Positions 1,985-2,877 of a stretch of 35,536 bases of DNA are shown here, piece after piece. The stretch comes from an uncultured Desulfobacteraceae bacterium (GTDB lineage: Bacteria > Desulfobacterota > Desulfobacteria > Desulfobacterales > Desulfatirhabdiaceae): positions 1 to 35,536 of the forward strand of contig CAIMCT010000569.1 in the NCBI GenBank assembly GCA_903839535.1, read 5' to 3'. Positions within the stretch are counted from its first letter, which is position 1, and each line of letters opens with the position of its first letter. The translations under genes were made by a program, and so were the position numbers. The notes under the pieces are model-generated. The model saw only the letters and a list, made by a program, of their open reading frames with translations, searched no databases and was not told where the DNA came from.

Positions 1985-2058
1985 ATATTGAGCAAACGAT
2001 TTGAACAGCAAACAAACAAAACCATGTCAATCAATATATCAATACCCGTCCCCTATTT
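1985..2058. repeat. 74-bp direct repeat, copy 1
   Basis: This stretch is repeated at 2804-2877 with 71 of 74 bases identical by my count and constant register (offset 819). Read on the minus strand it begins at the stop codon of the DUF6398-like gene. The same relation holds for copy 2 and the nucleotidyltransferase gene. I recall similar sequence near IS200/REP-type elements in related bacteria, but cannot verify this here. Confidence 0.85.
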
Positions 2059-2568
2059 TCGCTCTGGAAGATATGGGATAAGCCCTTTCGTATATGCAGC
2101 AAATTGGATATCACGGGGTAGGCTCCGGGCATCCACGATAAACCCATCGAGCATGATCGTCCAGGCCAAGGAGTTGCCCTCCATTTTGCTGGGACGGTAC
2201 CACTGCGGGTCCATCTGTCTCATGGCCAACGCGTCCCGTACTACTTTCGACTTGGCGGCTCCCGTGCTTTTACTGATGCCAAAGGCCGCACACAACTCAG
2301 CCGCAAGCATTGACGGAGTCTGACTTTTATCAAACAGAAAATTCACAAACCCCAAAGCATAGACAATCCCGCATGCCCAGGTCTGCACATAACCCGTTAC
2401 AAGTGGAGAAGGACGTTGGCGGCACAACGCCGCCGTGGCTTGACGCGCCAATAGCGCATATTCCTCGTCCAGATGGGTGGCGCAGAACGTATCCGTCAGA
2501 GCTACGATCGCGTTGAAAATGTTCTGCATCGGTTTCGGAACTTTTTCCGATCTGCTGATTCTGGCCAT
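2053..2568 (-). CDS. DUF6398-like protein
   Basis: The 171-residue product is mostly helical and begins MARISRSEKVPKPMQNIFNA. It has the general look of the DUF6398 family: an N-terminal helical pair with FCATHLDEEY, a central GYVQTWACGIVYALGFVNFL, and SMLAAELCAAFGISKSTGAA, which resembles a helix-turn-helix, ending in a WYRP/MLDGF region. The family is often found with plasmid pRiA4b ORF3-like proteins and has no known function. An in-frame ATG is preceded by GAGGAAGAA, a good ribosome site. The C-terminus stops exactly where the 74-bp repeat begins, so the natural tail may have been trimmed. Confidence in the gene is high, in the family moderate. Confidence 0.65.
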   Translation of the reverse strand: MARISRSEKVPKPMQNIFNAIVALTDTFCATHLDEEYALLARQATAALCRQRPSPLVTGYVQTWACGIVYALGFVNFLFDKSQTPSMLAAELCAAFGISKSTGAAKSKVVRDALAMRQMDPQWYRPSKMEGNSLAWTIMLDGFIVDARSLPRDIQFAAYTKGLIPYLPERK

Positions 2569-2620
2569 TCTTTCTTCCTCTTGTGATCTATGCTGTGAAC
2601 GGGTATAACCTGAACTTTCC

Positions 2621-2800
2621 TGGTTCTAACGGATTTTGTGGTTCTGCCACCGGGTGCAGTGTTTGTTATGAGATAATCTATGAATTTTCAGGCTCCGGAA
2701 TGACTGAAATGTCCTCGAAAGATTTTCCTGAACCGCTTCCGAGATCATTTTTAATTCATAAGCACCTGAAAATACATGACCACAAAATCCGGTAGAATCA
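2621..2800. mobile_element. MITE-like element with terminal inverted repeats (copy 1)
   Basis: The ends 2621-2642 and 2779-2800 are inverted copies of each other (22 bp, two mismatches), with the core CGGATTTTGTGGT. The 180-bp interior carries no convincing gene. The ends resemble those of the element at 17444-17640 (shared TAACGGATTT core with similar flanks), so both probably belong to one non-autonomous family. I could not identify a target-site duplication. Confidence 0.6.
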
Positions 2801-2803
2801 TAA

Positions 2804-2877
2804 ATATTGAGCAAACGATTTGAACAGCAGACAAATAAAACAATGTCAATCAATATATCAATACCCGTCCCCTATTT
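2804..2877. repeat. 74-bp direct repeat, copy 2
   Basis: This is the partner of 1985-2058 (three mismatches, no gaps). It begins three bases beyond the terminal repeat of the element at 2621-2800 and overlaps the stop codon of the nucleotidyltransferase gene. Confidence 0.85.

Follow-up and report, generated by a model that had tools for sequence, protein, structure and literature searches.

Solo ends of a TIRYT-type mobile element at the 3' ends of unrelated genes in an uncultured Desulfobacteraceae bacterium

TIRtrons and their TIR-associated tyrosine transposases (TIRYTs) are characterized, in Di Nocera 2013 (PMC3733652), by terminal inverted repeats (TIRs) with the motif GGGGWSAS and by dispersed TIR families. 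According to a second account (PMC6006769), most TIRYTs belong to TnpA_REP subclass 2.1 and have a C-terminal helix-turn-helix (HTH). The HTH types of TIRYTs are Bac_DnaA_C, HTH_23 or HTH_28. Among other dispersed repeats, the termini of GTAG REPs give TAG stop codons and are located no more than 20 bp from ORF ends, as also set out in PMC3733652. Here we describe a repeat family in an uncultured Desulfobacteraceae bacterium, starting from two copies in a 35,536-nucleotide stretch of its DNA (contig CAIMCT010000569.1, positions 1 to 35,536; hereafter the window). G, C and L numbers denote genomes, contigs and loci, respectively, G000 being the genome to which the window belongs.

The first-pass annotation had reported a direct repeat with 71 of 74 bases in agreement, placed exactly at the 3' ends of two unrelated genes. 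Alignment of the two copies (Table 1) reproduced the 71/74 identity, and both copies do overlap the stop codon of a minus-strand gene and supply its last codons. The word "exactly" holds only in part, as the two genes enter the repeat at different offsets: a single codon and the TAG of the DUF6398 gene come from the repeat, the stop being repeat bases 4-6, whereas the nucleotidyltransferase gene uses a different frame of the repeat, reading the codons ATA GGG GAC GGG TAT (IGDGY) before TGA at bases 18-20. The outer tip contains a stop in each of the three frames within 28 nt, and any gene running into the tip therefore ends there. The innermost part of the repeat was matched by BLAST in its own genome to the window pair only, and copy 2 has its inner edge (position 2804) where another dispersed repeat also has an edge, whose matches stop at about 2803-2809, so that 74 bp need not be the unit length. 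This second repeat fills the gap between the two genes, meeting or overlapping the inner edge of copy 2, with inverted arms at 2610-2642/2779-2811. Elsewhere in the window, positions 1-150 hold a high-copy repeat with 85 genome matches (both strands counted), several of them at contig ends, which includes a GTAG-tagged 29-nt inverted repeat (GTAGGGGCGAATCTTGTATTCGCC...).

Table 1. Repeat copies, the genes that they end, and the adjoining dispersed repeat (window positions)
Feature	Position	Strand	Remarks
Solo TIR copy 1	1985..2058	-	Outer tip (AAATAGGGGACGGG) at 2058; reads away from DUF6398 gene
Solo TIR copy 2	2804..2877	-	Outer tip at 2877; reads away from nucleotidyltransferase gene
DUF6398 gene, 171 aa	2053..2568	-	PF19935, E 5.1e-41; last codon and TAG stop supplied by copy 1
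Nucleotidyltransferase gene, 141 aa	2858..3283	-	NTP_transf_2, E 6.9e-10; last five full codons and TGA from copy 2
Separate dispersed repeat, ~190 bp	2620..2809		16 own-genome matches, itself included

The two copies belong to a dispersed family. A BLAST search of the repeat against its own genome (5.66 Mb in 580 contigs) gave 22 matches, and a 22-base core allowing up to 3 mismatches was found at 23 sites, 13 of them perfect, while the reversed pattern, used as control, gave 0. With no more than 1 mismatch allowed, the core occurs in 26 of the 389 genomes searched in the order, own genome included (control, 0). A 60-base consensus matches 6 of 57 genomes, again with its own among them. Individual copies are between about 28 and 74 nt long and have only the outer tip in common.

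A Y1/IS200-type transposase between corresponding ends is also present. The single PF01797 gene found in the genome lies on C540 as an intact ORF (G000:C540:2667-3668; 36.6 bits against a cut-off of 23), with HVH at 59 and YIHLNP at 118, which we take to be the HUH/Y1 signature motifs. A perfect right end follows immediately after its stop codon. The left end, upstream of the gene, matches in part: the inner portion (ATTGATTGACAT...TGTCTGC) is present and the outer tip is damaged, its best core match having mismatches at 10 of 22 positions, so that an active source is not seen in this genome. At two loci of relatives, L094 (G174) and L088 (G182), a perfect left end and a perfect right end are spaced at transposase length, with Pfam confirming L094 only. 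A protein search of named genomes led to 39 fetched loci, which span Desulfobacteraceae, other deltaproteobacterial bins, Nitrospirae and more distant bins. Inverted repeats surround the transposase gene in 17 of the 19 loci examined for TIRs, a count made without a shuffled control, and GGGACG stands at the outer end in 16 of these 17; one of the two loci without flanking TIRs begins at a contig edge. Several genomes also carry short elements made of paired ends. The C-terminal HTH signals (HTH_23, E 0.019 and 0.005; Bac_DnaA_C, E 0.24 and 0.0081) all fall below Pfam cut-offs, the match to the RAYT family NF047646 (REP_Tyr_transpos) reaches 66.6 bits, under the curated cut-off of 80, and phmmer against PDB gave hits to unrelated transcription factors only, at E 0.15 or worse, and none to a solved TnpA_REP structure. 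The repeat is the TIR of an element with an IS200-like HUH/Y1 transposase, of the described TIRYT/TIRtron kind, and the window copies are solo ends of that element.

Some loci show further features. At L010:2211-2619, HicA (PF07927) and a HicB-like partner (UPF0150, under cut-off) directly adjoin the transposase's right end, and at L094:2350 (G174) the transposase element adjoins an ORF ending YDMHGNV that may represent a cut protein of the sulfatase-modifying-enzyme type. Tandem units of AATCAATATGTTGATTGGTTTTTC lie inside the element at L029:1501-1653 (G000:C250) and at L045 (C273).

Tips are concentrated at gene ends in the Desulfobacteraceae genome. Counted by hand, 15 of 24 are at a gene's 3' end, the gene running into the tip or stopping just before it; the tally comprises the 23 core sites and a diverged uvrB copy at C540:180, excludes C250a, C273 and C429, and includes thiS and a receiver fragment of <90 aa. 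The chance per tip is 0.018 over all positions and 0.115 over intergenic or last-30-nt positions, as estimated from the 31 genes called mechanically in the window, and against the latter value 15/24 has P 3.8e-9. A mechanical count placed 15 of 23 tips at gene ends, with a membership differing from that of the manual tally, and 17 of 76 in relatives; another gave 13 run-in genes plus 2 tips after an intact stop, of 23. Run-in genes are present at 13 of 23 tips here versus 5 of 75 in relatives, as expected if many of the copies in this genome have been kept as stops. Among the genes that Pfam names are uvrB, glyQ (tRNA-synt_2e), thiS, a pyridine-nucleotide oxidoreductase (which we take to be lpd), histidine kinases, a glycosyltransferase and a RAMP protein. 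Another is presumably uvrA, judging from its ABC domain and C-terminus, the gene at C250 is putatively ABC-like, and that at C107 has orthologs and no Pfam hit. Two of the histidine kinase genes (L027 and L030; sites C198 and C281) are 85% identical over 700 nt upstream and unrelated downstream, and the tip, which is the same in both, lies at the same codon; these sites may represent one event, and we gave up counting them as independent, which seemed doubtful.

Orthologs without the element indicate what the insertions altered. The comparison covered nine sites, each set against one to three relatives, and 20 stretches in total. Of the nine, thiS has its own stop intact; at the other eight the element has replaced the gene's own tail within its final ten or so codons. 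The DUF6398 protein lacks about 8 C-terminal residues of the relative in G006. The DUF6398 tails read GLIPYLPERK versus GLIPSIPGLADMEKTTK, and the uvrB tails HIKAINRERLLI versus HIKELRKTAIFTA. The end of the GlyQ protein is unaltered (KK). The nucleotidyltransferase comparison was read from protein ends, the match at the DNA level being weak (score 27). Offsets from the natural stop differ by tens of bases between sites. A short element between glyQ and glyS (L033:1470-1600; G000:C511) has CTTCTGAAAAA on both sides where relatives have it once, a possible duplication that would be unexpected for Y1 transposition. Target-site duplication as a general feature was rejected, since the doubled CTTCTGAAAAA is seen at glyQ only and there is none at lpd, where the tail was replaced; an apparent repeat at C107 is better read as a diverged left end.

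Had one sequence simply been duplicated locally, with no mobile element involved, one would expect no copies beyond the window pair, as the first-pass annotation recognized; the matching of the inner repeat part to the window copies alone would fit such an origin. However, the 22 BLAST matches and 23 core sites are spread over many contigs and recur in other genomes, and the flanks of the window copies do not align past the repeat. These copies exclude local duplication as the source of the outer end, and we regard such an origin for the pair as scarcely credible, although it may apply to the inner ~15 bases. The same annotation had offered a shared 3' module acting in RNA processing, with the repeat serving as a terminator or processing signal in the transcript, and its location in 3' ends, in the orientation of the gene at most gene-end sites of its own genome, would suit that role. 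Against this, the window copies folded as RNA do no better than shuffles (z -0.52 and -1.25), they have no Rfam match, a terminator scan found 0 terminator-like sites in them, and the copies vary in length and have only the outer tip in common. With folding, Rfam and terminator scan all negative, we rejected this module as very improbable. The paired inverted ends do give long hairpins on folding (z -9.0 and -8.1).

The more serious question is whether the placement reflects where the element inserted or which insertions lasted. We think it probable that a TIRYT-type HUH/Y1 single-strand transposase once moved a small element, a TIRtron, whose left-end TIRs are the solo repeats seen here, that insertions at gene ends survived, and that ends supplying a stop were kept. 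The transposase would have moved ends or end pairs in trans; insertions in gene bodies would have been purged, and those within a gene's final ten or so codons, or a little beyond its stop, would have survived because the tip can close translation cleanly in any frame. A tip serving as a gene's stop codon would then have been kept while the remainder of the element decayed, leaving solo ends with their tips facing genes. As 13 of the 23 cores are perfect, the solo ends may instead be recent rather than old and selected. A serious rival, if the less likely one, is that the TIRYT chooses gene 3' ends, so that placement reflects insertion and not survival. The cue might, for instance, be a purine-rich target in which a T lies three bases ahead of GGGACGGG, or single-stranded DNA close to transcript ends. 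In relatives, 14 of the 70 tips without a run-in gene lie within 40 nt past an intact sense stop, compared with 5.2% of intergenic positions (P 1.2e-5), an excess suggesting that insertion itself may favour gene ends, but the null is one without selection and tips of one genome are not independent; the same count in the genome studied here is 2 of 10 (P 0.08). Flanks are purine-rich at -11 to -7, with T at -3 in 78% of 23 tips here and 87% of 76 in relatives, but this T and the G/A at -1 may be the element's own bases. The first-pass proposal of an element that targets gene ends is supported as to the mobile element and partly as to targeting: the 3'-end enrichment is strong here and weaker in relatives, but insertion tolerance and the three-frame stop can explain the placement without targeting. 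Both accounts fit; the loose offsets from the natural stop, together with the three-frame stop in the tip, lead us to favour survival and retention. A combined version, in which the TIRYT prefers gene 3' ends and the TIR has become a standard replacement 3' end in this genome, a three-frame mobile stop-codon cassette retained by selection at uvrA, uvrB, glyQ and many other genes unrelated to one another, seems doubtful to us.

Transposon ends can turn into permanent gene ends, as in the case shown here. The TIRYT family, with young and old copies across an order, offers natural sites for separating insertion preference from survival. For annotation there is a warning, in that the last residues of several proteins of this genome, such as IGDGY, derive from a mobile element.

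Among known systems, TIRtrons and TIRYTs are closest: the HUH/Y1 transposase, the flanking TIRs with a G-rich outer motif and the dispersal of TIRs singly and in pairs are shared, and a C-terminal HTH, with its weak signals here, may be. The motif here, GGGGACGG, matches 7 of the 8 positions of GGGGWSAS as published, with G in place of A at position 7. The sequence past the motif, by contrast, is particular to this family, and solo ends act as stop codons here, a role unmentioned for TIRs in the accessible parts of PMC3733652 and PMC6006769. The Y1_Tnp domain (PF01797) is shared with IS200/IS605 elements, which PMC2817692 describes as lacking TIRs, whereas the element here has them. In the non-subscription literature searched, we saw neither TIRs described as stop codons nor this TIR family reported from sulfate reducers. 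GTAG REPs and REPINs, with their RAYTs, are likewise Y1-transposase-associated repeats near gene 3' ends. However, each GTAG REP unit is a GTAG-tagged palindrome, whereas the solo ends here are non-palindromic and only pairs fold, and GTAG precedes the motif in some copies only, the four bases before GGGACGGG being variable. Stop codons from GTAG REPs have already been published (PMC3733652), and the repeat described here is a tidy example of a phenomenon known from related repeats.
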